Assembly: GCA_937872895.1 (NCBI GenBank)
Contig: CALMUP010000035.1
Coordinates: 1 to 64,000 of the forward strand
Length of the DNA stretch: 64,000 nt
Direction: 5' to 3'
Source of the DNA: an uncultured Verrucomicrobiota bacterium
GTDB taxonomy: Bacteria > Verrucomicrobiota > Kiritimatiellia > CAIVKH01
Shown here: one piece after another, positions 43,475-64,000 of the stretch
Layout of the letters: every line of letters starts with the position of its first letter
How positions within the stretch are numbered: position 1 is the first letter of the stretch
Notes under the pieces: model-generated
The model's database searches: none
What the model saw: the letters and a program-made list of their open reading frames with translations, nothing else
What the model was told of the DNA's origin: nothing
Program-made: the position numbers and the translations under genes

Positions 43475-43550
43475 GCCCCCATCGTCTAGAGGCCTAGGAC
43501 ACCAGGTTCTCATCCTGGTAACACCGGTTCGAATCCGGTTGGGGGTGCCA
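43475..43550 (+). tRNA. tRNA-Glu (CTC)
   Basis: A complete 76-base tRNA can be folded: acceptor GCCCCCA / TGGGGGT (first pair G-U), D arm GTCTAGAGGCCTAGGAC, anticodon stem CCAGG / CCTGG around loop TTCTCAT (anticodon CTC, reading GAG), T arm ACCGG-TTCGAAT-CCGGT, then G and encoded CCA. The sequence closely resembles bacterial tRNA-Glu. Its 3' half also forms the antisense of the last 13 codons of the recombinase ORF, which fits insertion of the island at this gene. Confidence 0.97.
43510..43550. other. Candidate attachment site (attL) in the 3' half of tRNA-Glu
   Basis: The serine-recombinase frame reads into the tRNA and ends there, and the tRNA stays intact. Mobile elements that target tRNA genes usually keep the 3' part as the att core. 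The host gene cluster with its terminator lies on one side and element genes on the other. The other end should carry a direct repeat of part of 43510-43550, beyond this window. Exact core unknown. Confidence 0.55.
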
Positions 43551-44931
43551 TACTGAAATACTGGCTATTCTTCACGCACAACTCCCCGAAAATAGAATCA
43601 CTTGCGACGGTTCGAACTTTTCCTTTGCTGATGGTGATGCCATTCGGGAATAAACTCAAAATCATCCGCGGACGGTCTTTTGGCTCACATTTGGCCCATA
43701 TCGTTGCGATATTCTTCATGCGTTCCTCGGCAAGTTCCAGTTGTCGATCGTTCATACGGATGGTGCTGTCAGCATCGGAAAGCTGATTACGCGCAGCGGC
43801 GAGCTGGCTATCCAACGACCGGCTCTTGCGATCAAAGATATCATTGGAAATGCGGTCGCTGAGCAATGCATCAACCAGTTTGTCTTTCTGTCTTTCCAAG
43901 TCAGTGATTTCCGCCGTGAGGCGGCCCTTGTCCGCCAGCGCTTGCGCAGAATCGCGATGGGCCTGATTGTCTACGAACCGCCGGAAAAACGGCATGTGCT
44001 CCAGCATGGCGTCGGAGACCTCGACGAGCAGCGCCTCGATGTCCGGCAGGATGTCTTCGGGCCGCACCCTGGACTTATGCCCAGTTACATCACAGTGATA
44101 ATAGTCGTAATGCTTACGGCGGCCTTTGGAGCGTGACGCTGTCATGGGCCTCTTGCAGGTTCCACAGACGAGCACGCCCTTGAGAGGAAACAAATCGAGC
44201 CGCTTGTTGGCGGGACGAACGTTGCCGAGAGCTTTCTGGACGCCGTTAAACAAGAGCGAGTCGAGCGTGGCGTAAATAGGATCCCTGAAGAGTCCATAGA
44301 ACGATGTCCGGCAGAGATCCGGCATCAGCAAGTCATACGCATCTTTCGGTTTTTCGCCTTTGATGACCATTTCAAAGGCGCGCCGGACAAGAGAACCGGT
44401 GATCTCGTCTTCTTCAAGCATGGGAATGCCGTCGGCACGACGGACAATCTTGAAGCCATAGGGAGCCTTGTGGCACCAACCGCCAGCGGCCTTAATGGCT
44501 TTCATGGCGGTCTTGGCTCGGGCAGCGCGCACGGAGTTGTCGAACTCTGCATAGGAGGCAAAAATATTTTCCATCAACGCCCCAGCGGCATCGTCGGAAA
44601 CCGGCTCGGAGACGGAAATGATCTGCACACCGGACTTGCGCAGTTTCGCCCGATATACCGCATAGTCGTACATGGATCGAGCAAAGCGATCCGTGCGATA
44701 CACGACAAGTCGGGTGATCAGATTCTTTTTGTTGGTACAGGTGTCAATCATCCGAAGAAATTCTGGCCGATCGGCGGTCTTCGCGGACTCGCCGCGTTCG
44801 ACAAACACTTCGAATACCTCGAAGCCATTACGGCTGCACCACTCGCGGCAATCCCGCTCCTGTGTGGAAAGGCTGGTGTTGTCCACCTGTTCGGTTGAAC
44901 TTACGCGACAATAAATTACGGCTTTTGACAT
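43510..44931 (-). CDS. Large serine recombinase (site-specific integrase)
   Basis: The 473-residue protein has the resolvase/invertase catalytic domain: KAVIYCRVSSTEQVDNTSLSTQERDC (nucleophile Ser in CRVSS), VYRTDRFARSMYDY (catalytic arginines), then a recombinase domain (GGWCHKAPYGFKIVRR), a zinc ribbon (CGTCKRPMTASRSKGRRKHYDYYHCDVTGHKS) and a C-terminal coiled coil (LTAEITDLERQKDKLVDAL). It would integrate and excise the element. ATG 44931 follows CAGGAGGATGGAGCC. The final 13 codons (MAPPTGFEPVLPG) are read from the tRNA antisense; the true element-encoded end may be near residue 460. Confidence 0.93.
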   Translation of the reverse strand: MSKAVIYCRVSSTEQVDNTSLSTQERDCREWCSRNGFEVFEVFVERGESAKTADRPEFLRMIDTCTNKKNLITRLVVYRTDRFARSMYDYAVYRAKLRKSGVQIISVSEPVSDDAAGALMENIFASYAEFDNSVRAARAKTAMKAIKAAGGWCHKAPYGFKIVRRADGIPMLEEDEITGSLVRRAFEMVIKGEKPKDAYDLLMPDLCRTSFYGLFRDPIYATLDSLLFNGVQKALGNVRPANKRLDLFPLKGVLVCGTCKRPMTASRSKGRRKHYDYYHCDVTGHKSRVRPEDILPDIEALLVEVSDAMLEHMPFFRRFVDNQAHRDSAQALADKGRLTAEITDLERQKDKLVDALLSDRISNDIFDRKSRSLDSQLAAARNQLSDADSTIRMNDRQLELAEERMKNIATIWAKCEPKDRPRMILSLFPNGITISKGKVRTVASDSIFGELCVKNSQYFSMAPPTGFEPVLPG

Positions 44932-45077
44932 GGCTCCATCCTCCTGCAAATGTCGAGAAGCACCTTGGCAAGCGTATAGAACTGAAGACGTTTGTCTTCG
45001 CACTCTTTGTCGGTAAGATGCATTCCGAACTTAGCACGAATCTCTTCGTTTGTAATCTCTTCAGGCAAAATTTTCAC
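44916..45077 (-). CDS. 53-residue protein between replicase and recombinase, doubly overlapped
   Basis: A GTG start overlaps the replicase stop (GTGTGA), giving VKILPEEITNEEIRAKFGMH, then LTDKECEDKRLQFYTLAKVL and LDICRRMEPCQKP. The stop lies 13 bases inside the recombinase gene, in another frame. The tight fit on both sides and the charged helical composition argue it is real and translated by coupling. A role as recombination directionality factor or integrase modulator is possible from position only; no family is recognised. Confidence 0.68.
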   Translation of the reverse strand: MKILPEEITNEEIRAKFGMHLTDKECEDKRLQFYTLAKVLLDICRRMEPCQKP

Positions 45078-48000
45078 ACTTTTGCCCCCCAGTTTTGCCC
45101 GATGGCGGCTTCGACTTCTACGGGGACGGTGGGGAAGAGCGCGGACATGGCCTCGATCATCGAGGCTACGAGGATCTGCTTGGCTTGCTCGGCTTTGTCT
45201 GCCGGTGCCAGGGCGATGAGTTCATCGTGGACGGTCGACACCAAACCACAGTCGGGCGGCAGTCGCTGGGCGATCAGGATGACGGCTTTTTTGATGCCGT
45301 CGGCAGAACCGCCCTGCACCGGAGTGTTGAGCGAAGACGCAAAGCGTTGCCAGCCATACTCACTTCCCGACAGCAGCAATCGCCGCCGTCCGGTTATCGT
45401 TCGGATCTCGGTGGCGTCGGCAGAGGCGTATTGGGTTTTATCCTGCCAGGCCTTGAGCATGGGATAGCCGGCGAAGAACCGTTCGCGGATTTCCCTGGAC
45501 CGGGCTTCCGACATTTCAACGCCATAAACCGACTTGGCATACTTGACCAAGCCGCGCGCGCTCTGGCCATAGAGCAGGCCGAAATTGACCGCCTTGGCCA
45601 ATTGGCGATCATCCTTGGTTACTGTCTCCGGCTGTTTCTCGAGTACCAAGGCGGCGGTCAGGCGATGCAGGTCAATGCCATTACGGTAAGCCTCGATCAT
45701 CTTGGGTTCCCCCGCGATGGCCGCCGCCACGCGCAGTTCGATTTGCGAGTAGTCGGCGACGACCAGGGAATATCCCTCCGGCGCGGCGAAGGCGGAGCGG
45801 ACCGGGCCACGCGGAACGTTCTGGAGATTCGGGTCCCTGCTGCTGAACCGGCCGGTTTCTGTGCCGGTCGGATCGAACCGGGAATGAATGCGGCCATCTG
45901 GCGCTACTGCCTCAAGCAGGGACTTGGTCTGCTGAGCCCGCTTGGAGGCTTCCCGGTAAGCAAGAATAGCCGGGATGTAGAGTTGATCTCCGGCCTCAAT
46001 GAGCGCCTCCTCCCCGGTACTGGCGACATCAATGAACTTATGAGCCAAGGCGGCCTTCAACTGCACAGGTGATGCCGGGTTCAGGTCGGGCCTTCCGAAA
46101 AGCTGACGTAGGCGGGCCTGTTCTTCATTTGCCGCCTTGATGGCTTCGGTATGGAAAGCCTCAAGGGTTTCCTTGTCCACCGGGAAACCGCGCGCCTCCA
46201 TGTCCACGATGGCCGGCAATAGTTCCATCTCCATCCGATACACCTCGGACAACCCGGCCTCGGCCAATGCCTTCTCAAGGGTGGCCTGCAAGTTGTGGAG
46301 ATGGATGACGTCAGCGGCGGCGTAGCGGATCTGGGCCGGGGCCAGATTCCCGCCCCAAGGAGCGGTCTGGGCGGTTTTATCCAGCTTGATCCCCAGGTGG
46401 CGCTCGACCACGGCCTCGAGGCTGTTGCGTTCACGGGTGCCCGCAGTAAGTAGCCGGCTGGCCGTCATGGTGTCCCAGAGGTTGGGCATGGCCAGCCCGC
46501 ACTTCAACTTGAGCCAGAGGGCGTCAAATTTCAGGTTATGGCCGACTACCACCCCGGAGGACATCACCGGACCCAGCGGGCCAAGGGCATAGCCGATGGC
46601 CTGCAGGTCGATCAGCCAGGGGGGCCCGCCGGGCAGGGAAAGGGTCAAAAGCCGGATATTTCCCCGCCAGGGATCGGTTTCGTATCCCTTTGGGCCGTAA
46701 GTTTCTAGATCCAGGGCGATGGGGGTGTTGGCGATGGCCAAACGCTCGGCGATTTCAACCAGCCCCGAGGGGTCTTTGACGTACACCATGGATACATTGG
46801 ACAGGTTCGCTACCTCTATATGATTACCTTCAATTTCCTTTATCTCTTCTCTCTCCAATACAGTGCTACCCTCATAATCGATAGGGTTGGCAACCTGTCC
46901 ATCCTGTCCGGAGTGTCCTCCGAAAATGGACTCAAGGATCAGCTTTCGGCGGTCAGGGGAATCACCATCGGTGACCTTCTGGAAGCGGTAAGTATGGCGG
47001 ATGGTGCGCACCGTGGTCTCGTTGGCCTGCAGGCGGATGCCACCCAGAACCCGCCCCACATACTTACGAAAATGGACGCCAAACTTCGTCTTGTCACCCG
47101 CTTTATCGAAGTCCATCCAGGCGAAAATATCCCCGTCGGACTCCTTGATCAGCTCGTAGATGGCGTCCTTCTTCACCCACTCCTGGTCGAACTTGGCGTG
47201 GCCGGCAATAAACAGAGCCTTCATGTCCGCGGTCAACCGGTCACCGTCGATAGAGGAATCCTCGGTGTGAGGAAGGCAAGGGTCGCCAAGCCCGGCCACA
47301 TGCATGATGCCACCGACCACGGAGGCCCATTTCGGAAAACTGGTGAAGACCCCCGGTCCGGCCGGACGACCTGCCGCGTCCCAGGCGTTCACCAGCGCGG
47401 CCAGCGCCGACACAAATTGATCACGGGTGTGGAGAATCCAACCATGCAGGTCCGGATTGGAAAACCGCCGTGCATTGGCATGCTCCTCCTCGTAATGCAG
47501 CATGATGATCCGGCTACGGTTGCCGAAGTCCGGGGTGTAGGTCAGGCCCACGTTTGCCGAGAGACTTATCTCCAGCTCGTTCGGGATGGTCACCTCGATG
47601 TTTTCGCCCAAGCGCCGGTCCGTCCACATCGGCGCGGTGACGATCATCTCAAACGCCGCGTTGTTAATATGCCCCCGGCAGTTGGCAAAGTGAATCCGGC
47701 GGCGCCCCGACAGCAGGGCGGCGGTGATTTTTTTCCGGGTCTCCGGTTCGTCGGAGTTGAGCGGTGCATCCTCGTTCGGGCGGCCTTCGTATAGCAGGGG
47801 ACAAAGGGCGGCGAGGAAGTCCTTGCCCGCCCGCTCGCGGTTGGCCTTGTATATCCACACCGGCGTACGCTCGTTCCACCGGCCAAACAATCCCTTGCAG
47901 AATGGGGTGATCAACGCGGCCAGGGCATGGACGAGCGCCTGTTCATGGGCAAAACAAAACTCACAAAAAAGCTGACGGAGAAGATCCACAGCCTGAGCTG

Positions 48001-49462
48001 GCGACATTCGACGGATACTCGGAGCGTTGGGATTCAGAAAGGTGCGGAATGAGGGATCATACCCGGCCTGCGGGTAACCGATAGATCCATCGGCCCGAAT
48101 GATGGGAACGGGGATGTCCAGAATGCGATCGACCTTGGCCAGATGAGTCCGGAATTGGGGTGACGCCAACAGGGCCTTGGCGGTGTTTTCCGTCATGGAC
48201 TTTGAGACGAAAACCCTCTGACCGTTACCGTCGGGCATGAGGGCACCGACCTCGGCAAACTTTTCCACGAAGGTAATAGCCCGCACCGGGCGTAGTGCGG
48301 TGAAGCCAAGGGTGGTGGCTTTCTTGCTGATCTGCTGCTGGGAAACCTCCACGATTTGATCATGCCGGACAAACAAGCCATCCTCAGCAGTGTGCGCACC
48401 GAGGATTTCGCCGGCGTCATTGGCGAAGTCCGACTGCGGACGTCCCGGCCCCGGCAAGAGTAACCGCGGTCGCCCGTCATGTGCCGCTTGGCCGGTCTGC
48501 CAAACCCGTTGCTGACGGCAATGCTTGTCCACAATGCCCGGCGTCCGATCCTCCAAATGATTCAGAAAGTCGGCCAGTGACTTTTCCCCGTGGGAGGTGT
48601 GCAGGCACTTGAAGCCTGGCCAATTCCCGTCCCTGCCTTCAAAGATCACTGTGCCGCTGTCATTTCGTGGATCGGGTTGGGTGGTGTGGGCGTCGGACCA
48701 AGGACACCGGATCGCATACTTTCCTTCATCCGCATCGAGTACACGCGGCTCAAGGCCGGCTTCTGTGACCAACGCCACCATATCCAGCGTAGCCAGGTCG
48801 CCCATAAAGCGGTTTTGCCAAAAAACCTTCTTCGAGTACTTGGTAGTGACTGGCGAGGCCGACTGATTCGATGGAATTTCGAGAATACGGGCAAGGTCCG
48901 CCCATGCAACCGAAGGCAGCGGACCGAATACCTCCCACCGGTAAGACGCACCGCTTTTATGGACCGAGGGCGCGAGTACCACGTTGCCCCCGAAAAACAC
49001 CTCGCAGTTCACCGTGTTGTTCAGGGCTAAGATCAGCTTCTGCTGTTTGCCCGCCGCTTGCAGAACCTCCGGCGGAATATCCTGGCAAAGCACATGCAGA
49101 TGCACCCCGCCGGTGGTGCGTTCACGAGGCCAGGTGTGAACGGCATTACTCGCGGCAACCCAAGACTCAACACTCGCCCCGGCATCCGCCTTGCTGTCCA
49201 AATCAATCACGATATGCGGAGGTTGCACCAGCAATCCCAGATTCCGCTGATGCCCATTACTGAAATACTTCAGAAAATATGCATCAGTGGAATCCTCTCG
49301 CTTGCGATTCTTCCAGCCTTTCTCCACCGGTTTTTTGCCGCGTTCACTCTCGGTCCCGTCGCCAGGACCATAGAGGGCGTGGACCGTCCAGGCCAGCTCG
49401 TCCCGGTAAAGACGGGCTGCATCGAGGACGCTCCGGTGATTGATGTCGGGCGGGATGATCAT
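45074..49462 (-). CDS. Four-part replicase: prim-pol primase, P-loop region, 3'-5' exonuclease, family A DNA polymerase
   Basis: The 1462-residue protein combines in one chain: (1) an archaeo-eukaryotic-type prim-pol domain, with VIDLDS (Asp87, Asp89), TTGGVHLHV (His121/123) and VNCEVFFGGN...APSVHKSGASYRW; (2) a Cys/His primase-like finger (about 253-290, CPWSDAH...CLHTSHGEKSL); (3) a P-loop-like region (about 536-660) whose Walker A is ANRERAGKD with Lys547; (4) a DnaQ-fold 3'-5' exonuclease with intact ALDLE (918/920), GHNLKFD (980) and YAAADVIHL (1051); (5) a PolA polymerase with ADYSQIELR (Asp1237), RQLAKAVNFGLLYG and TVHDE (Asp1413). ATGA/GTGA overlaps tie it to both neighbours. Confidence 0.93.
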   Translation of the reverse strand: MIIPPDINHRSVLDAARLYRDELAWTVHALYGPGDGTESERGKKPVEKGWKNRKREDSTDAYFLKYFSNGHQRNLGLLVQPPHIVIDLDSKADAGASVESWVAASNAVHTWPRERTTGGVHLHVLCQDIPPEVLQAAGKQQKLILALNNTVNCEVFFGGNVVLAPSVHKSGASYRWEVFGPLPSVAWADLARILEIPSNQSASPVTTKYSKKVFWQNRFMGDLATLDMVALVTEAGLEPRVLDADEGKYAIRCPWSDAHTTQPDPRNDSGTVIFEGRDGNWPGFKCLHTSHGEKSLADFLNHLEDRTPGIVDKHCRQQRVWQTGQAAHDGRPRLLLPGPGRPQSDFANDAGEILGAHTAEDGLFVRHDQIVEVSQQQISKKATTLGFTALRPVRAITFVEKFAEVGALMPDGNGQRVFVSKSMTENTAKALLASPQFRTHLAKVDRILDIPVPIIRADGSIGYPQAGYDPSFRTFLNPNAPSIRRMSPAQAVDLLRQLFCEFCFAHEQALVHALAALITPFCKGLFGRWNERTPVWIYKANRERAGKDFLAALCPLLYEGRPNEDAPLNSDEPETRKKITAALLSGRRRIHFANCRGHINNAAFEMIVTAPMWTDRRLGENIEVTIPNELEISLSANVGLTYTPDFGNRSRIIMLHYEEEHANARRFSNPDLHGWILHTRDQFVSALAALVNAWDAAGRPAGPGVFTSFPKWASVVGGIMHVAGLGDPCLPHTEDSSIDGDRLTADMKALFIAGHAKFDQEWVKKDAIYELIKESDGDIFAWMDFDKAGDKTKFGVHFRKYVGRVLGGIRLQANETTVRTIRHTYRFQKVTDGDSPDRRKLILESIFGGHSGQDGQVANPIDYEGSTVLEREEIKEIEGNHIEVANLSNVSMVYVKDPSGLVEIAERLAIANTPIALDLETYGPKGYETDPWRGNIRLLTLSLPGGPPWLIDLQAIGYALGPLGPVMSSGVVVGHNLKFDALWLKLKCGLAMPNLWDTMTASRLLTAGTRERNSLEAVVERHLGIKLDKTAQTAPWGGNLAPAQIRYAAADVIHLHNLQATLEKALAEAGLSEVYRMEMELLPAIVDMEARGFPVDKETLEAFHTEAIKAANEEQARLRQLFGRPDLNPASPVQLKAALAHKFIDVASTGEEALIEAGDQLYIPAILAYREASKRAQQTKSLLEAVAPDGRIHSRFDPTGTETGRFSSRDPNLQNVPRGPVRSAFAAPEGYSLVVADYSQIELRVAAAIAGEPKMIEAYRNGIDLHRLTAALVLEKQPETVTKDDRQLAKAVNFGLLYGQSARGLVKYAKSVYGVEMSEARSREIRERFFAGYPMLKAWQDKTQYASADATEIRTITGRRRLLLSGSEYGWQRFASSLNTPVQGGSADGIKKAVILIAQRLPPDCGLVSTVHDELIALAPADKAEQAKQILVASMIEAMSALFPTVPVEVEAAIGQNWGAKV

Positions 49463-49599
49463 AGAACTAACAGAACGAAAAGCAGGTGCGCAACGACGAA
49501 ACCCAGTAGGAACGAATGAAGCACTATCGTGCAGAAAAATAGGTTGTTGATCTCATAGCGATCACCAAGCCATGCGTTGAATTTACCGAGGAATTTCAT
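49459..49599 (-). CDS. 46-residue single-helix membrane protein in the replication operon
   Basis: ATG 49599 overlaps the nuclease stop (ATGA) and the stop overlaps the replicase ATG (ATGA). GAAAGGAGAATCCGT gives an excellent ribosome site. The peptide is MKFLGKFNAWLGDRYEINNL followed by FFCTIVLHSFLLGFVVAHLL and FVLLVL, a hydrophilic head and one membrane helix. It is below most gene-caller cutoffs. The double coupling suggests a deliberate stoichiometric partner of the replicase or nuclease, perhaps a membrane tether. Function unknown. Confidence 0.78.
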   Translation of the reverse strand: MKFLGKFNAWLGDRYEINNLFFCTIVLHSFLLGFVVAHLLFVLLVL

Positions 49600-50405
49600 A
49601 CGGATTCTCCTTTCTCGCGGGGGTCATAGCCTTTGATGTGACGCCAAATAGCGCACACATGAAGGAAGGTGTCGTACAGTTCGGGAAGATTCGGGTGCTT
49701 ATAAACCTCGAACCGGCCCGGTTCGGTTGTGCTAATGTAGACGTTCGCGGCCAGCACTCGAGGTAGCGCCTCAATGCCATAGAAGGCGGCGGAGTATGCG
49801 GCCAGCTGCATTCCTTGGCCATCATACGGCGTTACGATTTCACCGGGTTTTGTCTTGCGGGTTTTGTAATCCAGAATCCCGATGCCTTTTTTCCCAAACG
49901 TGAAGAGTGCATCGGTGCATCCGGCATAACCCTCTTTCAGATTCACCAGAACCTTTTCCCGTTCGGTGATGGTGATGCCGGTGGAGACTTTCCACTTTAG
50001 GACAGGTTCAATGTAAACCGCCAATGCAGGATCATAAGGCTCACCGGCGAAAACTAACTCCAGGGCAGCGTGGATCGAGGAACCAAGCTCTGCCGCGTCC
50101 TCCACCTGCTTGAATGCCTCGTCATTCACCCTACGGGCCCAGTAATAGATGGGTTCGTTGGGCAAACGAGGTGTACGTTCCGCGGCCTGGATGGCCTGCT
50201 CGATTTTCCATTTCGTCAGAGCTGGTTTGTCCACGACGGACAAGTAGGACGTCACTGACGGAATCAAATGCAAAGCTTCGGCATCCGTGATGCGGGTGGG
50301 CCGGGTGCCATCGCCCGACTTGGTGGGTTGCTGGTGGGCCGGCTTGCCGTCTGCTGTGTACCAGTGCGAAGCTTGGCCGAATCGGTCTTTCGTTAGAATT
50401 GCCAT
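49596..50405 (-). CDS. PD-(D/E)XK exonuclease (RecB/Cas4-like)
   Basis: The 269-residue protein has an early helical segment (YYWARRVNDEAFKQVEDAAELGSSIHAALELV, with the His of motif I), then GYAGCTDALFTFGKKGIGILDYKTRKTKPGEIV, the D...DYKTRK motif (D-x(n)-ExK-type with Asp/Lys), and GMQLAAYSAAF (motif QxxxY). This is the RecB/Cas4 nuclease pattern seen in phage and mobile-element recombination/replication genes. No Cas genes or CRISPR array are near, so a Cas4 adaptation role is unlikely. AGGA lies before ATG 50405; its stop overlaps the 46-residue gene. Confidence 0.85.
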   Translation of the reverse strand: MAILTKDRFGQASHWYTADGKPAHQQPTKSGDGTRPTRITDAEALHLIPSVTSYLSVVDKPALTKWKIEQAIQAAERTPRLPNEPIYYWARRVNDEAFKQVEDAAELGSSIHAALELVFAGEPYDPALAVYIEPVLKWKVSTGITITEREKVLVNLKEGYAGCTDALFTFGKKGIGILDYKTRKTKPGEIVTPYDGQGMQLAAYSAAFYGIEALPRVLAANVYISTTEPGRFEVYKHPNLPELYDTFLHVCAIWRHIKGYDPREKGESV

Positions 50406-54101: not shown

Positions 54102-54710
54102 ATGATTAAGAACGTCAAGAAAATGAAAAAAAACGCCCGATTGGGGGACCTGGCGGAAATCAAGGGGGGGTATGCACCTCGGCGGGGCGTGGAGGATGAG
54201 AAGGCGGGTGAGGTGGCCTTTCTGCAGGTCGGTGATTTCAGCGAGGACCGACGGCGGATCGAGAAGGCCCCGACGCACATTAATCCGGAGGGTAGCAATC
54301 CGCGGATGCTTCAGGCGGGTGACGTGCTCTTCTTGGCCAAGGGGCGGAAGCCTTTTGGGTATGCGCTCAATAAGGTCGAGAAGCCGATGATTGCAGCCGG
54401 GTACTTTTTCATCGTGAGGCCATCGGATCGCGTGGTCCCTGAGTATCTGGCTTGGTTCCTCTCTCTGGAGAATACACGGCGTCATCTGTTGAAGGAGGCG
54501 GGGGGCGGCACGCATATGCCGGTGGTTCGCAGAGATGTTTTGGAGAGCATCGAGATTCCGCTTCCGTCCCTTGAGGTGCAGCGGGCTGTCGTCGAGCTGG
54601 CTGAACTTATGGAAGAGGAAGCGGACTTATTGGAGAAGATGAAACGGCTGCGGGCGCAGCTGGTGGGTGGGATGTTGAGGCAACTGATTGAAGAAGGAGA
54701 TGCGCAATGA
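54102..54710 (+). CDS. hsdS: Half-size type I restriction specificity subunit (HsdS-like)
   Basis: The 202-residue protein has one target-recognition domain (LGDLAEIKGGYAPRRGVEDEKAGEVAFLQVGDFSED, MLQAGDVLFLAKGRKPFGYALNKVEKPMIAAGYFFIVRPSDRVVPEYLAWFLS) and one conserved helix (PLPSLEVQRAVVELAELMEEEADLLEKMKRLRAQLVGGML). A full HsdS has two of each (about 400 residues), so this half-subunit may dimerise to read a palindromic target, as in some known systems. It overlaps hsdM by ATGA. A second, full-length HsdS is encoded at 60216. Confidence 0.85.
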   Translation: MIKNVKKMKKNARLGDLAEIKGGYAPRRGVEDEKAGEVAFLQVGDFSEDRRRIEKAPTHINPEGSNPRMLQAGDVLFLAKGRKPFGYALNKVEKPMIAAGYFFIVRPSDRVVPEYLAWFLSLENTRRHLLKEAGGGTHMPVVRRDVLESIEIPLPSLEVQRAVVELAELMEEEADLLEKMKRLRAQLVGGMLRQLIEEGDAQ

Positions 54711-56209
54711 ATGATAAGGCAATCAAGGATGAAATTTTCAACGTGGTGTGGGCGGCGTGTGACACCTTCCGGGGGGTCATCGATCCTTCCCAGTACAAGG
54801 ACTACGTTTTGACCATGCTTTTCGTGAAGTACCTGAGCGATATCCGCAAGTCGAAAGCAGCGGAGTATTCGGGAAAGTACCAGAACGACCCCGTGCGGGT
54901 GGAGCGTGCGCTGGCGCGAGAGAGGTTCATCCTCCCGGAGGACTGCACCTTTGATTACCTATACGCGCACCGAAACGACAACGAAATTGGACAGACCATC
55001 AACGCGGTCTTGGAGAAGATCGAGGATGGTAACAAGGCCAAGCTTCATAATGTGTTTCGGAACATCGATTTCAACAGCGAGGCGAACCTCGGAAAAGCTC
55101 GCCAGCGTAACCAGCGCCTCAAAACCCTGCTCGAGGATTTCAATGAGCTGGACCTGCGACCCGAGCGCGTCGGACACATGGACATCATTGGTGATGTCTA
55201 TGAGTACTTGATTGCTCGCTTTGCCGCGCAGGCAGGGAAAAAGGCTGGAGAATTTTACACGCCGGCCGAGGTGTCGGAAACGTTGGCCCGTTTGGTCGCG
55301 CCCGAGTCGGGCGACCGGATCTGTGACCCGACCTGCGGTTCCGGCTCTCTCCTGATCAAGGCCGCGAAACAGGTGGGGTCTCGCGATTTCTCTCTGGCGG
55401 GGCAGGAAATGAACGGCAGCACGTGGGCGCTCTGCAAGATGAATATGTTCCTGCACGACGTGGACGCCGCTCGCATCGAATGGGAAGACACAATCCGCCA
55501 TCCGCTTCTGATAGAAGGCGATGCGCTGATCAAGTACGACGTGGTTGTCGCCAACCCTCCCTTCAGTTTGGACAAGTGGGGCCAGGAGATCGCCGCCAAC
55601 GACAAGTACCAGCGGTTCACGCGTGGGGTGCCGCCGAAAAGCAAGGGCGACTGGGCCTTCATTCTTCACATGCTGTCCACTGCGGTGGAGGGGAAGGGCC
55701 GAGTGGGCGTCGTTGTACCGCATGGGGTGCTGTTCCGGGGCGGCCAGGAGGGCGCAATTCGAAAGGCCGTTATTCAGGAAAATATGCTCGCCGGTGTGGT
55801 GGGATTGCCTTCCAACCTGTTCTACGGGGCCGGAATTCCAGCAGCCTTGTTGATCTTTGACAAGAGTCGCAAGCATGCCGACAAGGATAAGGTGCTGTTC
55901 ATCGACGCATCACGTGAATACGAGCAAGGGACCAACCAGAACAAGCTGCGCCCGGAGGATATCAACAAGATCATCGATACCTTCCATACCCGAAAGGAAA
56001 TCGAGAAGTACTCGCACCTCGCCACCTATGCGGAGATCGAGGAGAACGAGTTCAATCTGAACATCCCCCGTTACGTCGATACCTTCGAGCCGGAGCCTGA
56101 GGTGGATATCGCTGCCGTGCAGAAGGAAATCGAAGACCTGGAGGCGAAGCTGACGGAGACCAGAGCGAAGATGGACGGCTATCTGAAAGAGCTGGGGTTC
56201 ATCAAGTAG
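54707..56209 (+). CDS. hsdM: Type I restriction system DNA adenine methyltransferase
   Basis: The 500-residue HsdM has an N-terminal helical domain (VWAACDTFRGVIDPSQYKDYVLTMLFVKYLSD), SAM motif I in ICDPTCGSGSLLIKAA (near residue 206) and catalytic motif IV VVANPPFSLDKWG (NPPF near 282). A C-terminal coiled coil (VQKEIEDLEAKLTETRAKMDGYLKELG) contacts HsdS. It makes N6-methyladenine within the target read by HsdS and protects host DNA. Overlaps the half hsdS by ATGA; nine bases before the PLD gene. Confidence 0.95.
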   Translation: MNDKAIKDEIFNVVWAACDTFRGVIDPSQYKDYVLTMLFVKYLSDIRKSKAAEYSGKYQNDPVRVERALARERFILPEDCTFDYLYAHRNDNEIGQTINAVLEKIEDGNKAKLHNVFRNIDFNSEANLGKARQRNQRLKTLLEDFNELDLRPERVGHMDIIGDVYEYLIARFAAQAGKKAGEFYTPAEVSETLARLVAPESGDRICDPTCGSGSLLIKAAKQVGSRDFSLAGQEMNGSTWALCKMNMFLHDVDAARIEWEDTIRHPLLIEGDALIKYDVVVANPPFSLDKWGQEIAANDKYQRFTRGVPPKSKGDWAFILHMLSTAVEGKGRVGVVVPHGVLFRGGQEGAIRKAVIQENMLAGVVGLPSNLFYGAGIPAALLIFDKSRKHADKDKVLFIDASREYEQGTNQNKLRPEDINKIIDTFHTRKEIEKYSHLATYAEIEENEFNLNIPRYVDTFEPEPEVDIAAVQKEIEDLEAKLTETRAKMDGYLKELGFIK

Positions 56210-56218
56210 AGATACGCC

Positions 56219-58588
56219 ATGCCGGTCGAATCCATAAAATTGTCAGACTTTTTCGGGAGCATCAAAAAACCGAGGTATGTTCTGGGCACGACGTACACGC
56301 TGAGCCTGGCGTTCTTCGAGTCGGTGGTGTTTCCGTATATCGACCGGTCCCGGTTGCGCTCGTGTTTTATTATTGCCGACAAGATTGGGTATCAGCGCGC
56401 GATTTCAGAGGCCGCCGCCCTGCAAAGCGCGGGGAATGGTTACATGGTCGCGCCAGCACCAAGGTCGGGCTGTTTTCATCCCAAGGTTTGGCTCGTGATC
56501 GGTGAGTCGGAAATGGCGATGCTCGTGGGTAGCGGCAATCTGACGCAATCGGGCTTTATGGTGAATGCCGAGTACTTTGACTCGGTCTTCATCAGCAAAG
56601 AGGAGCCTGCCGATGAGCGCCTCGTGCGCGACATAGAATCGTTTGTGGCCGGGCTGGCCGGTATGTGGGGCGAGGGCAATTCTGCGGGGTCGCTGTATGT
56701 GGAGACTCTCGATCAGATTCGGCGCGCTATAACTGTGTTTCGCGGCGGCCAAGCCGAAGAAGCGGTCCCCCGGCTGATCCACTCTTTTTCCGGAAAGCTG
56801 ATCGACGGACTGCCGGAAGTGCCAGACTGCACGGAGCTGTATGCGGCAGCCCCATTCTTTGGCGGGAAGGACGACGGTCTCCGCTTGCTGGCAAGCCGGT
56901 ATCCCAAAGCAAAGTTGCACGTGTTTCCGGCCGTTCACGGCGCGGAAGCTACAGACTTGCCTATTACCAAGGTGAAGGAGGAATTTAAGCCGAAGACGCT
57001 GGCAACGCTGCGCGTTCCCGGAAAGGCGCGTCCGCTCGCGCATCTGAAGCTGTACGGCATCAAAGGCTCATCCGCATCCTGGATGTACTGCACCAGTGCC
57101 AACTGCACGGCAGCAGCGTGGTCGGGACCGAACGTCGAGGCCGGGCTGCTCCGCCCGGTCGGTGGGACCGTGCTGAAAGAGTACTTTCGCGCTGATAAGA
57201 CGAAACTCCCGTCCGGTGAGCTTGAGTACAGCGGCGAATCGGACTCCGTGAATAACTTCTCTCTGACAGCATCGGAATCTGGGCTCGGGTTGGAACTTGT
57301 CGCGGCCGGGTCCGAACGTGATCGCCTGCCGATTACCGATGTCCGCCTGACGGTGCGGGTTGGAAGCCACTCGGCGGTTTTTGCCGCGAAGACGCTGTTC
57401 GCGGGTCACGGTACGGAGCATGTGTCGTGGGACAGCTTCGTTGGGTGGCACAGGACCCGGAACATGGCGGTCTGCCTAGAGCTCATCGCGAAGGACAAGG
57501 CCGGCAAGCCAGTCTCGGCAGCGTGTTTTGTCGAAAACCGCATGCTGTTGACCGCCGACCCAATCCACCGGAGTGCCTGGCGTGGTGCTCTGGCTTTGCT
57601 CGACAGTGAGTCAATGCCTGACCTCTCCGATATTGCCGCCATATTTACCCTTGTGGGTAACATTTTCGATGGCCGCATCATCACCAGATCGGTGTCGGTA
57701 CGGGATAGTGACAGCGACGATATCGAGCCCGATGAAGAGGAGGAATCGAGTGTCCATGTGGCTATCTGGCCGCCGCAGCCGGTACATCATGACCTTCAGC
57801 GACAACTAGGGACGACGGGCATCGGTCAACTCCAGTGGTGTCAGAGAATCCTGCAGACATTCCTGAAGCCGGAGTCGGCGCAAGAGGGAAGGCCCAAGGT
57901 CGAGGTGCACGAAACGGCGGATGATGCAGATGACGAGGAATCGGCCGAGATAGAAGCGGCCAGGGAGGCCGAGCGCGAGCAGCTTCAGCGATTGGCCGAC
58001 CGCATCTGGAGCAAGGCGGAGAAAGATTATGGGAGGCTGACGAACCGACTACTGACACTCGAGCCGGATGAAAAGGTCGCGGAGAATCTTTGGCCGGCGG
58101 CCGTCTTTGTGTTTCTGGCGACGATGGCCGTTCGGCGGGCCGCTAGCCGTATGGCCAATAATGTCGGTGACATACCGGCCGCCGCAGCGTTGGCGAATGA
58201 GTTCCTGTATCTGATGGTCAATCCGCGGGAGCAGCATGAAAACTTCTGCTGCTCCCGGGACATGCGGTACCGGCATACGACGTTTCCGCCGCTATCCAAG
58301 GACCTCCGCGATGAGTTCAACATCACAATTCACCCGGACCTGTCTACCGTCATGCTGGCTGTGGTGGCCCAGAAGAAGATGCGGGAGGCGCCGAATGGCG
58401 AGTACCCGCTCCTCTGGCCCCGCCTCCTCGGCGAGGTGGTCGGAGAGGGCTTTAATTGGGACGAGGGTGCCGTTGAAACCTGTCGCCATGTGTGGCGTCA
58501 GTACCTACGCGAAGACACGTCAAAGGAAACGGACGAAGAGTTCATGGATACCCTGCTTTGGCTGAAAACGACAAGGAATCCGTTGTGA
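56219..58588 (+). CDS. Phospholipase D-fold protein with two HKD motifs, part of the R-M island
   Basis: The 789-residue protein has two PLD half-sites: HPKVWLVIGE...LVGSGNLTQSGF (His87, Lys89, GSGNLT 104-109) and HLKLYGIKGSS...CTSANCTAAAWSG (His275, Lys277, 292-297). Both active halves look intact apart from variant Asp positions, as in many PLD nucleases. The rest (about 310-789) has a beta-rich part, a Glu/Asp-rich linker (near 505-595), and a helical C-terminus. Its stop overlaps the next gene (GTGA). In DISARM and other defence systems PLD proteins are thought to be nucleases; here a nuclease role is inferred. Confidence 0.82.
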   Translation: MPVESIKLSDFFGSIKKPRYVLGTTYTLSLAFFESVVFPYIDRSRLRSCFIIADKIGYQRAISEAAALQSAGNGYMVAPAPRSGCFHPKVWLVIGESEMAMLVGSGNLTQSGFMVNAEYFDSVFISKEEPADERLVRDIESFVAGLAGMWGEGNSAGSLYVETLDQIRRAITVFRGGQAEEAVPRLIHSFSGKLIDGLPEVPDCTELYAAAPFFGGKDDGLRLLASRYPKAKLHVFPAVHGAEATDLPITKVKEEFKPKTLATLRVPGKARPLAHLKLYGIKGSSASWMYCTSANCTAAAWSGPNVEAGLLRPVGGTVLKEYFRADKTKLPSGELEYSGESDSVNNFSLTASESGLGLELVAAGSERDRLPITDVRLTVRVGSHSAVFAAKTLFAGHGTEHVSWDSFVGWHRTRNMAVCLELIAKDKAGKPVSAACFVENRMLLTADPIHRSAWRGALALLDSESMPDLSDIAAIFTLVGNIFDGRIITRSVSVRDSDSDDIEPDEEEESSVHVAIWPPQPVHHDLQRQLGTTGIGQLQWCQRILQTFLKPESAQEGRPKVEVHETADDADDEESAEIEAAREAEREQLQRLADRIWSKAEKDYGRLTNRLLTLEPDEKVAENLWPAAVFVFLATMAVRRAASRMANNVGDIPAAAALANEFLYLMVNPREQHENFCCSRDMRYRHTTFPPLSKDLRDEFNITIHPDLSTVMLAVVAQKKMREAPNGEYPLLWPRLLGEVVGEGFNWDEGAVETCRHVWRQYLREDTSKETDEEFMDTLLWLKTTRNPL

Positions 58589-60213
58589 GTAACATGCCCA
58601 AATATCCTTTCCTGACGATGGACTTCTCGCCGCGCGGTGGCGGTATCGATTTCCTCGGGCTGCGCTATGTGAACCTTCACATGGTCGGCAATTACCTGAT
58701 TCCTGAGCTGAACAACGTTACCCGTGATATGGGCATATTCTTCCTCGGTGCCTGGGTTCCGTGGAAGTTCCGCCAACTTAGCGGTGAAGACAACTTCACA
58801 CCGAAGCAATACCGAGCTTTTCGAGAGAAGGCCGAGGTGGCCATCTCTCTGAATATGCGCGATGAAGCCCCCGCCGCTCAGAAATTCGGCAATACCCGCA
58901 ACCGCGTCGGCGTGACCCAGAATTGCCGGTTGCCGGGGCCTTTGACTTTCAAGGCGGCATCGCGCAGACCTCAGAACAGCTTCTATGCGGCAGCCATTTA
59001 TGGACCGGCGCTCGTGGCCTTGCACTGCGTGGACTCCTACGATGTCCGGGCCAGGGATGGTGTGTACCTGAATATCGCCACCGCATCCCCCGATCCCGAT
59101 ACGCGAACGATTGTGGAGACGGTGGACGCGGCGCTCCGCGAATCGGATGCTTACGATAAGCTGGCGTCGCTGGAGGACGAGGCATTCACGGAAGAGGAGG
59201 TGGACGAACTCGGCCGCAACGGACTAGCGCCACCCTGTTACCGGCACCAGCGCTTCAATGCGCTCAAGCCACTTTTCCAGAAGAAGCTGCTGCCGGCAGA
59301 CGCCAATGCCCGCGGCTATGCACGTACGCGGACAACCCGTCTTCTTCTGGCGACTCTGGAACAGCACGATGGCCAAACGAGCGATGAAATCCGCAATGCC
59401 TGGTACACCGGGCACTTTGGTGATGGTTCTGTTCTGCGGTTGGCCGATGAGGATCTCGAAGACATGCGGCAGTACTGGTCACACTTCATGGCGCGCCAGT
59501 ACCAGCGGTATGCCATTGAATTGATGCTGTGGTGTTTTGAAACCGCGCTTGTGAACGGTTGCCGCTCGATTGAGGAGGCTGTGGATTACTGGGTCACGCG
59601 AAGTCACGACGCAGGCCAGGCGCTGCCCGTCACCTTCCGACAGATGATCGATGATGTCGCCGGCAAGCTTAAGAAGGATGACGACCAAGCCACCTCGAGG
59701 GCATGGAACGACTCAGTTCACGGCGAACATGAGCGGTTCGAATTCGTGTATGAAGCGCATGGTGATGAGGGGTGCGTACATGCGCTTCGTATGTGTGCCG
59801 GGTGGTACTGGCGGATGCTTCGTTGGGATAATTCCGGGCCGTACAAACACCTGATGACCCTGGGAGATTCGGACCGCATGAGCATGAGTTGGTTTATCGA
59901 GTGGCTTCAGAAGCGGCAGGAACTGCCGATCCGGGACTTCCTCAAGGATGTCTTTTCGGACTTGGTGTTTTCCCAGCATATGCGGATCGCATTGTCGCGA
60001 TTCGACGGGCGGGCGCAGCGGTTGCGATTTGTCCTCGGTGACAACGGTATCGAGGCGACGGTCAGTGCGCGCGGCGACCTCGGCAATCTCCGGCTCCCGT
60101 GGATGCCGGACCGGCTGGATACGTTGATTGAACTTCTATGTGATGTCGATGTGTTGAAGCTGGATGAGAATGGAGTGGTGAGTCTAGGGCGTAGAGCAAG
60201 CGGGGTGAAGTAA
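58585..60213 (+). CDS. Unrecognised 542-residue protein coupled to the PLD protein
   Basis: GTG 58585 overlaps the PLD stop (GTGA) with AAGGA upstream; the sequence starts MSNMPKYPFLTMDFSPRGGGIDFLGLRYVNLHMVGNYLIPELNNVTRDMGIFFLGAWVPWKFRQ. Further segments are mostly helical (NALKPLFQKKLLPADANARGYARTRTTRLLLATLEQHDGQTSDEIRNAWYTGHF, FMARQYQRYAIELMLWCFETALVNGCRSIEEAVDYWV). No known catalytic or membrane motif was found. The tight coupling suggests it forms a complex with the PLD protein. Only three bases precede full hsdS. Confidence 0.78.
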   Translation: MSNMPKYPFLTMDFSPRGGGIDFLGLRYVNLHMVGNYLIPELNNVTRDMGIFFLGAWVPWKFRQLSGEDNFTPKQYRAFREKAEVAISLNMRDEAPAAQKFGNTRNRVGVTQNCRLPGPLTFKAASRRPQNSFYAAAIYGPALVALHCVDSYDVRARDGVYLNIATASPDPDTRTIVETVDAALRESDAYDKLASLEDEAFTEEEVDELGRNGLAPPCYRHQRFNALKPLFQKKLLPADANARGYARTRTTRLLLATLEQHDGQTSDEIRNAWYTGHFGDGSVLRLADEDLEDMRQYWSHFMARQYQRYAIELMLWCFETALVNGCRSIEEAVDYWVTRSHDAGQALPVTFRQMIDDVAGKLKKDDDQATSRAWNDSVHGEHERFEFVYEAHGDEGCVHALRMCAGWYWRMLRWDNSGPYKHLMTLGDSDRMSMSWFIEWLQKRQELPIRDFLKDVFSDLVFSQHMRIALSRFDGRAQRLRFVLGDNGIEATVSARGDLGNLRLPWMPDRLDTLIELLCDVDVLKLDENGVVSLGRRASGVK

Positions 60214-60215
60214 TC

Positions 60216-61469
60216 ATGAATGATCCGAACGAAAATAGGCCAGGGTATAGGAAGACGAAGGTGGGGTGGATTCCGGAAGAGTGGGAGTGCACGACATTAG
60301 GTATAATGGCCGCGCCTTTTCGCGCCGGCGTTAGCGTGAATGCGGATGACAGGCCTGCCCGTGACGGCGAGTGCGGCGTGCTCAAGACAAGCTGCGTATA
60401 CAGCGGAGTCTTCAATCCTCAAGAAAACAAGGTTGTGAAAACCGAAGAGATCGATCGTGTGCGTGTTCCAGTCCAAAGAGGCTGCGTGATAATGAGTCGT
60501 ATGAATACGCCGACTCTAGTGGGCGCTAATGCATACGTGGACCAAGACTGGCCTACGATGTTTTTGCCCGATCGACTCTGGCTTATAAAACCAGAGAATG
60601 ATAGTCGAGATGATCCGATATGGTTCGGCTATTTGATGAATGCAACCATCGTACGGAATGCTGTCGCTGCTCGTGCAACCGGAACAAGCGGAAGCATGAA
60701 GAATGTCACACAAGAAGATGTGCGACGTATCCATGTGCCTAGACCACAAAAGGAGGAGCAGATAGCGATGTCGTTATTGCTCTTGTTGTGGGGGCAATCT
60801 ATAGCATGCGTTGAAGAAATGCTGAAAGCCAAAAAGCTGCGCAAGAAGGGGCTTATGCAGCAGCTCCTTACTGGCAAGAGCCGCCTGCCGGGTTTCGCGG
60901 GAGAGTGGAAGGAAAGGCGTCTTGGCGACCTGTTTACAGAACGCAGAGAAACAGGCCGATGCGATCTGCCCCTATTGGCAATAACCGGAAGCAAGGGCAT
61001 TGTTCCAGCCGTTGATCTCGACCGAAAGGATGCATCAAATCAGGATAAATCCAAATATTTGAGAATCTGCCCAGGAGATATCGGATATAACACTATGCGC
61101 ATGTGGCAAGGCGTCAACGCCGTTTCGTCTCTGGAAGGTATTGTGAGTCCTGCCTATACGATTTGTACTCCCAAGGATTATACGCATGTTGGTTTCATGG
61201 GCCACTTTTTCAAGTATCAGTTCGTGGTACATCAATTCTGGCGACACTCACAAGGGCTTGTCGATGATACGCTCAGTCTAAAGTACCACAATTTTGCCTG
61301 CATAAAGCTCTATGTGCCGGAGAAGGAAGAGCAGGAAGCCATTGCACTTATCCTAGACGCCGCAGACGAAGAGATCGCCGCCGAAGAGCGACGTCTACTC
61401 GCCCTGCAGGATCAGAAACGCGGCCTGATGCAGAAACTCTTAACTGGGGAAGTGAGGGTGAAGGTATGA
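60216..61469 (+). CDS. hsdS: Full-length type I restriction specificity subunit
   Basis: The 417-residue HsdS has two TRDs, the first with YRKTKVGWIPEEWECTTLG at its start and the second with LPGFAGEWKERRLGDLFTERRETG, each followed by a conserved helix: PRPQKEEQIAMSLLLLLWGQSIACVEEMLKAKKLRKKGLMQQLLTGK and VPEKEEQEAIALILDAADEEIAAEERRLLALQDQKRGLMQKLLTGE. It gives bipartite sequence recognition. Its stop overlaps the coiled-coil gene by ATGA. It coexists with the half-size HsdS at 54102, so the locus may have two specificities. Confidence 0.93.
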   Translation: MNDPNENRPGYRKTKVGWIPEEWECTTLGIMAAPFRAGVSVNADDRPARDGECGVLKTSCVYSGVFNPQENKVVKTEEIDRVRVPVQRGCVIMSRMNTPTLVGANAYVDQDWPTMFLPDRLWLIKPENDSRDDPIWFGYLMNATIVRNAVAARATGTSGSMKNVTQEDVRRIHVPRPQKEEQIAMSLLLLLWGQSIACVEEMLKAKKLRKKGLMQQLLTGKSRLPGFAGEWKERRLGDLFTERRETGRCDLPLLAITGSKGIVPAVDLDRKDASNQDKSKYLRICPGDIGYNTMRMWQGVNAVSSLEGIVSPAYTICTPKDYTHVGFMGHFFKYQFVVHQFWRHSQGLVDDTLSLKYHNFACIKLYVPEKEEQEAIALILDAADEEIAAEERRLLALQDQKRGLMQKLLTGEVRVKV

Positions 61470-63286
61470 GTATGGCTGGAAACGATGTTCGACCGCGCAG
61501 GATGTCGCGCCTGGTGCGCCTGGAGCGTCCGCGTGTATGGACGACTTATCAGCTCCAAGCTGAGGTGGGTCACAAGCTGAAAAGCGAAGCAGATTTATTT
61601 GCTGCTGCTCGTCAAGAGATCACCGATTGGCTCTCCAAAAAAGCGCCTGTAGAGCTGCCTGCATCGGCTGCGAAGGGTGAATCCTTTGTTGTCGATGAAC
61701 ACGGCCAGCGTATTGAGTGCGTGAGTATTCCCGACCACGGTGTGTGGACCTGCCGATTGTCGCATCCCGATATGGGAATGGGCGATATTGAGGCGGTTCC
61801 GGGACGGCATTGGACGACGGACCTATGCCTCAGGAGGATCGATGGCAAAGTCATGTTCGGAGTAAACGTGGCCTGCGCGATGCTGCAGACGGATCATAGT
61901 ATGCTGACCTACGCGCGGCCAGCTATCGTGCGAAATCTTGCAATAAGCACAGGACTGATTCAGGTTCGTCCGCTGATGCACGAACCGTCGGTGCTGTCAT
62001 CACCGGAACGCATCGACGATCTGGAAAAGTTACTGTTGTCTACGGATCGATCGCTTCCGGTTATTATCTTCAGCATGCCGGACCGTAAGCGGTGGCATTT
62101 GACCCAATCGCCACCTCCACCTTATTTGGTCGATGCCCTGTACGTGGCGAAGGAGCTGCAGGGGTACGCTCATGTTATCCAGTTAACATATCCGATGGGA
62201 TATGAGTGGACGAAGAGAGTTGGTGCACCTTGGGCCGTCTTTGACGGGGCGATTCGGATTTACCAGCCTGGACTAAATTTCGATGAAGATGACCTTCGAG
62301 CGCATCCCCTCTATCGGAAGGATATGATCTGGTACCACAAGTACCACGATCACAGCGGGCCCAAGGCATTCACGGATCAACTCCTGGATGTCATACGCGC
62401 GCAGAATGCCCGCGGCCGATGGACCATTCCGGAGCTGGTGACCGTCGCGCAGGCACGCTTACTGGCCTCCGAGCTCAACGCGGCCCAGATTCGCGCCTTT
62501 ACACAGGAGAAAGAAGAGGCCTTTCAAAAGGCGCTTGAGAAGCTAGCCGACGCCGAGAAAGGGATGAGCGTGGCAAGCGATGCCGCTTCGCAGATGCGGG
62601 AATTGGTGAAGGCGAAAGACGACGCAGCCAAAGCGCTCCACAATCAGGTTGAGGAATTGACGGCGGCGCTCAAGGAGACCCAGGTGGAGGCTGAGCAGTG
62701 GTCTGACCTGGCGAAGCAGGCGGATCAGGACCGGGAATACTTCGAGAAGCTTAACTATAATCTGCGCAACCAGATCAATGTCCTGCGTGCAAATCTTGAA
62801 GCGAAAACGGGCGAACAACTGGATGTCAGCATCCCGATTCCGGAATCATACGAAGATATGGAAGAATGGGCCGGTCAGTACTTGGCGGACCGTTTGGAGC
62901 TTCACCCCCGTACAAGACGCTCTCTGAAGCGTGCAAACTATGAGGACGTGCCGCTTGTCTACAAGGCGCTGTTGGTGCTTGCGAACGAGTATCGCAACAT
63001 GAAGCTGGGCCACGGTGACAACACCATGTTTGAGGAAGCGCTCGGAAAGCTGGGATTGAAGTGTTCGGGGTCGATCGACGAAGCGCGGGCCGGTTCGGAG
63101 GGCGATGCCTATTATGTCGAGTATCCGCCGGGTAGCCGAAAGCGTGAATTTCTGGCTCTCCATCTCCGTAAAGGAAAGGTCAAGGACGATCGCCATTGTC
63201 TGGCTATCTATTTCTTCTGGCATGACGCGACACAACAAGTGGTGGTCGGTTGGCTGCCCTCACACCTGGACAACCAACTAAGCTGA
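61466..63286 (+). CDS. Coiled-coil protein inserted between HsdS and HsdR
   Basis: The 606-residue protein has a mixed alpha/beta N-domain (1-325; GRHWTTDLCLRRIDGKVMFGVNVACAMLQ, LPVIIFSMPDRKRWHL, GAPWAVFDGAIRIYQPGLNFDEDDLRAHPLYR), a long coiled coil (about 331-450; QARLLASELNAAQIRAFTQEKEEAFQKALEKLADAEK...), and a small C-domain (about 480-606; RRSLKRANYEDVPLVYKALLVLANEYRNM, LALHLRKGKVKDDRHCLAIYFFWHDATQQVVVGWLPSHL). I do not know its function. The C-domain wording (HLRKG..DDRHCL.IYFFW...VVVGWLPSHL) is reminiscent of a domain seen in defence-associated proteins. Confidence 0.78.
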   Translation: MSMAGNDVRPRRMSRLVRLERPRVWTTYQLQAEVGHKLKSEADLFAAARQEITDWLSKKAPVELPASAAKGESFVVDEHGQRIECVSIPDHGVWTCRLSHPDMGMGDIEAVPGRHWTTDLCLRRIDGKVMFGVNVACAMLQTDHSMLTYARPAIVRNLAISTGLIQVRPLMHEPSVLSSPERIDDLEKLLLSTDRSLPVIIFSMPDRKRWHLTQSPPPPYLVDALYVAKELQGYAHVIQLTYPMGYEWTKRVGAPWAVFDGAIRIYQPGLNFDEDDLRAHPLYRKDMIWYHKYHDHSGPKAFTDQLLDVIRAQNARGRWTIPELVTVAQARLLASELNAAQIRAFTQEKEEAFQKALEKLADAEKGMSVASDAASQMRELVKAKDDAAKALHNQVEELTAALKETQVEAEQWSDLAKQADQDREYFEKLNYNLRNQINVLRANLEAKTGEQLDVSIPIPESYEDMEEWAGQYLADRLELHPRTRRSLKRANYEDVPLVYKALLVLANEYRNMKLGHGDNTMFEEALGKLGLKCSGSIDEARAGSEGDAYYVEYPPGSRKREFLALHLRKGKVKDDRHCLAIYFFWHDATQQVVVGWLPSHLDNQLS

Positions 63287-63290
63287 TAAA

Positions 63291-64000
63291 ATGAATAACG
63301 ACAATCCATATCCAGAGCTCCCCAGTTATTTAGAAAAAGTGCAGTCTCAGCTTCCTGCGCTTCAGCTGCTCGTTCAAATGGGATGGCAGTATCTGACCCC
63401 TGAAGAATGTGTTGAGTACCGAAACGGCCGCATGGGTACGGCTATACTCGAGCCGATTCTGACGGACCACATCCGTAATCATGCTCGCTACGAATTCAAG
63501 GGTAGCGAGAGGGCTTTCACGGAAAACGCGATCCAGAATGCGGTCCAGGCCTTGAAGGGATTCAGGGCCACGGGCGCAAGTCACGAAGACGAGCAGGCCT
63601 ACGACCTCCTGTGTCTTGGAACCAGTGTGCCACAGACGATCGAGGGGGACACGAAGAGTTTCACCATCGACTATATCGACTGGAAGCATCCGGACAACAA
63701 CACCTATCACTGCACGGCCGAGTACAAAGTGGAGCGCGTCGGGTACCAGAAGCACTACATCCCGGACATTGTACTCTTTGTGAATGGGATTCCGTTGGTG
63801 GTTATTGAGTGCAAGCGCAGCGCCTACACGGATATGAGAAAGGAGCCGATCGACCTGGCGATTGAGGACCTGAAAGACTACCAGGCAAAGGATGGCATCC
63901 CTCAGTTGTTCCTCTATTCCCAGCTCGTTCTGGCGTTGGCACGGGACAAAGCTGAATACGCAACCACGGGCACGCCACGGAAGTTCTGGAGCGTGTGGAA
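63291..64000 (+). CDS. hsdR: Type I restriction endonuclease subunit R (5' part, cut by window end)
   Basis: The open frame from ATG 63291 runs to the window end without a stop (236 codons shown). It starts MNNDNPYPELPSYLEKVQSQLPALQLLVQMGW and has the N-terminal nuclease domain of HsdR: EDEQAYDLLCLGTSVPQTIEG, then YIPDIVLFVNGIPLVVIECKRSAYTDM, in which Asp and Glu-x-Lys form the PD-(D/E)XK catalytic triad, and the QFLYSQLVLAL-like stretch. The helicase motor would lie beyond 64000. It is 4 bases after the coiled-coil gene stop. Confidence 0.93.
   Translation, partial: MNNDNPYPELPSYLEKVQSQLPALQLLVQMGWQYLTPEECVEYRNGRMGTAILEPILTDHIRNHARYEFKGSERAFTENAIQNAVQALKGFRATGASHEDEQAYDLLCLGTSVPQTIEGDTKSFTIDYIDWKHPDNNTYHCTAEYKVERVGYQKHYIPDIVLFVNGIPLVVIECKRSAYTDMRKEPIDLAIEDLKDYQAKDGIPQLFLYSQLVLALARDKAEYATTGTPRKFWSVW

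Follow-up and report, generated by a model that had tools for sequence, protein, structure and literature searches.

A candidate two-gene PLD nuclease module related to Azaca within a verrucomicrobial type I restriction operon

The window, the whole 64,000-nucleotide stretch of a contig from an uncultured Verrucomicrobiota bacterium analysed here, closes with a single tight operon on the plus strand that encodes a half-size HsdS, HsdM, a PLD protein, its partner, a full-size HsdS, a HEC-07-like protein and HsdR (Table 1). The half-size HsdS lies upstream of hsdM, although the same operon also encodes the full HsdS. Further to the left, the GC content falls from ~0.63 to 0.53–0.59 past a tRNA-Glu (43475-43550), and the end of a 497-aa serine recombinase reading frame on the opposite strand overlaps this tRNA (region 43475-45003). 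The drop in GC and the recombinase at the tRNA are consistent with an acquired island; a search to the right for a second copy of the tRNA-Glu end (att) as island border found none. A 1462-aa protein encoded on the minus strand (45074-49462) combines prim-pol, 3′–5′ exonuclease and family A DNA polymerase domains and adjoins a PD-(D/E)XK-like protein (49596-50405). The arrangement resembles a replication module carried by an integrated element.

Table 1 The PLD–partner pair and its host operon in the window.
Feature	Coordinates	Strand	Remarks
Half-size HsdS, one specificity domain	54102..54710	+	Host operon, outside the pair; profile matches
HsdM, N6-adenine methyltransferase	54707..56209	+	Host operon; profile matches
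PLD (HKN-type) phosphodiesterase, ZacB-like, 789 aa	56219..58588	+	
Partner, ZacA-superfamily protein (predicted), 542 aa	58585..60213	+	
Full-size HsdS	60216..61469	+	Host operon
HEC-07-like protein (PADLOC candidate, E 7e-106)	61466..63286	+	Separate passenger of host operon
HsdR, 5′ part	63291..63998	+	Whole gene 1069 aa, past window end, L006:292-3501

The PLD protein carries the two HxK...N half-sites that define the PLD superfamily, formed by H87/K89/S105/N107 and H275/K277/S293/N295. In each half, an asparagine follows 20 residues after the histidine of the HxK motif, N107 within GSGN and N295 within TSAN. In an alignment of 20 relatives, invariance is confined to D54, H87, K89, S105, N107, T109, G112, N116, E118, H275, K277, S293, N295 and E307, that is, both half-sites and a few neighbours. 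Both half-sites are present in 21 of the 22 PLD sequences scanned, the exception being L044 (606 aa as annotated). By these motifs, the product belongs to the bilobal PLD phosphodiesterases, has two TDP1/Nuc-type half-sites, and is predicted to be a nuclease rather than a lipase. Pfam returns weak PLDc_2 and Tyr-DNA_phospho matches and nothing else, and PADLOC returns weak matches to ZacB, PDC-M27B, PbeA and DrmC. A zinc-ribbon-like cysteine segment is found at the C terminus of the PLD proteins of L005, L008 and L009, and is absent from those of the window and L007.

The partner family has no conserved catalytic motif. Its N terminus bears the signature GGGIDFLGLR...LIPELNNVT, and its C-terminal segment, read from the alignment alone, appears winged-helix-like. 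The window partner has zero matches to Pfam, NCBIfam or PADLOC models, and a PDB fold search with the partner model gives no match at E <= 0.001. Structure predictions of the PLD protein and the partner (3-4 sequences each) reach a pLDDT of ~51, too poor for a fold, and a search against the sequences of solved structures returns nothing convincing for the PLD protein, the partner, ZacA or ZacB.

These results bear on an earlier note on this DNA, which had described two complete HxK/GSGN halves, a large extra C-terminal region of the PLD protein, and a translationally coupled partner of unknown family. Both HxK/SxN halves are intact, and His87 and His275, the residues it had singled out, each open one of the two HxK motifs, but the second half reads TSAN rather than a literal GSGN. 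The extra region is borne out as ~400 aa past the PLD fold that are specific to the family, and so is the coupling, as the GTG start of the partner overlaps the PLD stop (GTGA). The description of the partner holds insofar as the window protein matches no library model, but its family appears distantly ZacA-like.

Full-length homologues of both genes adjoin likewise elsewhere, so the pair is not a chance arrangement. Over 20 loci hold the adjacent pair; they belong to Verrucomicrobiota, Proteobacteria, Actinomycetota, Bacteroidota and a single haloarchaeon. Close copies are found in other Verrucomicrobiota, with identities to the window partner and PLD protein of 57% and 45% (L007), 39% and 31% (L008), and 35% and 30% (L005); L009, from the same phylum, shows 35% identity. 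In all four, the PLD gene is immediately upstream of the partner gene. This order is shared by the Verrucomicrobiota and a Novosphingobium/Rhizobium group, while all others place the partner first. In the loci opened, PLD proteins span ~780-890 aa (L044 apart) and their coupled partners 495-602 aa, and a 4-base overlap between the two genes is usual. The pairing has two exceptions: in L047 a partner was not identified, and in L045 an annotated 187-aa gene lies between the PLD and partner genes.

The distribution of the pair is patchy. Within its own phylum it is rare (2 of 388 genomes), and many copies are plasmid-borne. With the PLD protein as query, tblastn leads to plasmids of Sphingomonadales, Rhizobium, Burkholderiales, Streptomyces, Miltoncostaea and a Halobaculum, and searches started from two partners of the loci opened independently led back to many of these records. 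Plasmids and phages yielded nothing by tblastn with the window partner, nor did phages with the Undibacterium partner, and an IMG/VR scan was likewise empty. Weak partner matches in G087 and at a second site of G255 lie in or against the reading frames of other genes and were dropped. Over 19 loci, PLD and partner distances are strongly correlated (Mantel r 0.935, 0 of 5000 permutations), to which shared host history may contribute. The recurrence of the adjacent genes and their matched divergence support a mobile two-gene module.

The closest catalogued system is Azaca, which was reportedly validated against phages by Millman in 2022. Azaca comprises a PLD domain and the helicase ZacC (PMC10952713, PMC12278908), and in 2023 its mechanism was given as unknown (PMC10482375). 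The phylum of the window also has genuine Azaca operons (ZacA-ZacB-ZacC), whose ZacA is Pfam DUF6361. When scanned singly, each of the 20 PLD relatives hits the ZacB model of PADLOC (best 5.7e-18). The window PLD protein matches it at 1.1e-7, and profile-profile comparison with ZacB gives 96.4%. A true ZacB scores 5.6e-169 against this model, far above the window protein; because of this gap, we place the likeness at the level of the superfamily.

The partner is linked to ZacA more distantly. Of 22 partner relatives, 10 match the ZacA model (best 1.5e-5), and apart from one stray weak match the partners hit essentially no other family; the window partner itself matches neither ZacA nor DUF6361. 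Stepwise profile-profile comparison connects the window-type partners to alphaproteobacterial (99.7%) and proteobacterial/Bacteroidota partners (99.2%), and those groups to actinobacterial partners (98.2%). The merged two-gene partners then match ZacA together with an intermediate from L036 at 94.7% (E 5.6e-8), mainly over the N-terminal ~115 columns. Controls lie at or below ~1% (reversed profiles, 0.8%; unrelated PLD profiles, <1%). Compared directly with ZacA, the verrucomicrobial partners score 0.3%, and the C-terminal third of the partners gives no signal. Because of these two results, we claim a superfamily relation through intermediates, as indicated by the profiles, and not membership of ZacA. 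The L036 intermediate belongs to an Azaca/PDC-M27-like operon (L036:2734-9700, minus strand), whose A protein is unrecognised by PADLOC models and connects the two-gene partners to ZacA in sequence.

No ZacC-like gene is present in the window operon, where the pair is followed by HsdS, the HEC-07-like protein and HsdR, and the pair thereby lacks one defining feature of Azaca. HsdR, though a helicase, belongs to the type I RM system.

Relatives of the pair stand beside diverse defence loci, called here from annotation and profile matches as plain adjacency. In L007 the pair adjoins Pycsar (PycC 5e-98, PycTIR 2e-105) as well as an HmaA-like helicase, in L038 Zorya, in L046 a Mokosh-like MkoB and in L039 a gene of the AbiEii toxin family. 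Qat (QatC 5e-112) neighbours a PLD gene of this family in L047. Other copies keep company with restriction genes: L008 has HsdR along with an E1-E2 gene, L005 has PDC-S39 and hsdM/S, and L040 and the Prevotella locus L042 have type I RM. In Myroides (L043), the pair lies inside a type I operon between the S and R genes, independently of the window case. Three neighbourhoods deserve separate mention. The Pycsar system of L007, the closest relative of the window pair, is complete (TIR-cNMP effector and cyclase; L007:5919-7562) and directly upstream of the pair. On a Rhizobium plasmid (L016:603-13014), DpdE-like (7e-181) and DruE-like (1e-84) helicases diverge from the PLD–partner pair, with which they possibly form a composite system. 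In Sphingobium (L041:2946-11934), SNF2 and a 587-aa protein without a PADLOC family lie on the same strand, directly upstream of partner and PLD.

The pair is not an obligate component of type I RM. Within the ~15-21 kb stretch available per locus, 17 of 22 related loci are devoid of an HsdM/S/R homologue, and HEC-07 stands beside type I RM without the PLD pair in other Verrucomicrobiota (L067, L071). Judged by this distribution, the pair is a separable unit that enters restriction operons repeatedly. The suggestion made in the earlier note, of a stand-alone pair within a restriction island, is largely supported, as the pair recurs as a unit (Mantel r 0.94), mostly without hsdMSR. That note had set beforehand, as grounds for giving up the idea, that the pair never occurs without hsdMSR; it does, for example at Pycsar in L007 and at Zorya in L038.

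We weighed several functions for the pair against one another. The two proteins could be accessory subunits of HsdMSR, or of another resident helicase, that process DNA translocated by HsdR, and the copies in or beside hsd genes in the window, L043, L042, L008, L005 and L040 suit this role. We regard it as quite unlikely, because most copies occur without hsdMSR; the remaining neighbours are also highly varied, and RM operons of the HEC-07 type do exist without the pair. The same distribution lowers a known non-defence function such as DNA maintenance or a plasmid role, for instance TDP1-type repair of protein–DNA adducts. The TDP1-like HKN motifs, the weak Tyr-DNA_phospho match and the many plasmid copies would agree with it, but the rarity of the pair in its phylum and its repeated position beside defence systems make it very improbable.

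A helicase might instead act in trans, with the pair working as an Azaca-type system that loads onto an SF2 helicase provided by the host or a neighbouring gene. In favour, ZacC is part of Azaca proper (PMC12278908; L031-L034), several pairs adjoin SNF2/DEAD helicases (Hma-like, ZorD, DpdE/DruE-like, SNF2), and DISARM offers a precedent in the DrmC-like PLD nucleases proposed to work with DrmAB (PMC9142583). We find this unlikely: among the loci of the relatives, no helicase recurs or is consistently placed, and nothing like six helicase queries is found in L012, L013, L014, L015, L017, L018, L019, L037, L039 or L044-L047, among which L046 holds a Mokosh-like AAA-domain protein by annotation. 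A toxin–antitoxin-like mode of abortive infection, in which the partner restrains a cell-killing PLD nuclease until infection, is compatible with the coupled genes, strict pairing, conserved nuclease site, and mobile, patchy distribution. It is nevertheless an improbable reading, since a partner of ~500-600 aa and a large extra PLD region are atypical of such systems, and the partner resembles ZacA and no known antitoxin. We favour another explanation and consider it rather likely: the two genes form a self-contained module against mobile genetic elements, a helicase-less relative of Azaca.

PLD phosphodiesterases need neither metal nor ATP for cleavage, which proceeds via a covalent phospho-histidine intermediate. 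In the self-contained module, the two half-sites, each contributing H, K and N, would form one active site using this phospho-histidine chemistry. The PLD protein and the partner probably form a complex, in which the partner may recognise a feature of the invader, most likely nucleic acid, through its N-terminal signature and winged-helix-like C terminus. As a putative sensor or scaffold, the partner would hold, gate or recruit the nuclease, which would then degrade DNA. Because the module includes no helicase, it would work without translocation, although helicases near the pair in some loci (L007, L016, L038, L041) may still act in trans. The hsd operon probably serves the pair as a landing site and promoter, and the pair may back up type I restriction with a second layer that does not depend on methylation. 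The outcome would be either clearance of the foreign DNA or suicide of the cell.

A wider reading, on which we are evenly divided, is that the pair represents an uncatalogued, widespread two-gene immune system, in which a ZacA-superfamily sensor controls a large HKN-type PLD nuclease on its own, and neither ATPase nor helicase takes part. On this view, a larger PLD/ZacA superfamily would include Azaca and PDC-M27 as the branches that carry a helicase, and type I RM operons would be one of the sites where it repeatedly docks. A helicase-less two-gene relative would isolate the ZacA/ZacB core and make the role of each protein testable alone. It would also extend the superfamily over five phyla, one of them archaeal, and serve as a clear example of type I restriction operons that house independent modules. 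The 2023 models of PADLOC miss the window partner, and we found no description of the pair in the literature on Zac, DUF6361 and Azaca-like systems (mainly open-access, preprints in part).

Among known systems, Azaca is the nearest in architecture: the PLD protein matches ZacB, part of the partner family matches ZacA, and the genes are adjacent and coupled. The A-then-B order is common to ZacA-ZacB and many non-verrucomicrobial copies of the pair, whereas the window pair has the reversed order and lacks ZacC. Its proteins are also longer (542 and 789 aa, compared with ~390-430 and 596-615 aa in Azaca), and direct similarity is too low for a PADLOC call of the window partner. The PLD protein of the PADLOC candidate PDC-M27, M27B, is matched by 18 of 20 PLD relatives, but PDC-M27 and L036 have an M27C-like helicase and the window pair does not. 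DrmC of DISARM, DpdK of Dpd, and PbeA share a PLD nuclease domain in a defence context and give weak matches. Unlike the pair, DISARM and Dpd encode DUF1998/YprA helicases and further genes, and we know of no ZacA-like partner in the DISARM, Dpd or PbeA systems. Type I RM operons with passengers such as HEC-07 and YgjP-like proteins offer the closest parallel in setting, the window pair lying between hsdM and hsdS and the Myroides pair between hsdS and hsdR; the pair itself is no HsdMSR subunit and occurs without HsdMSR.
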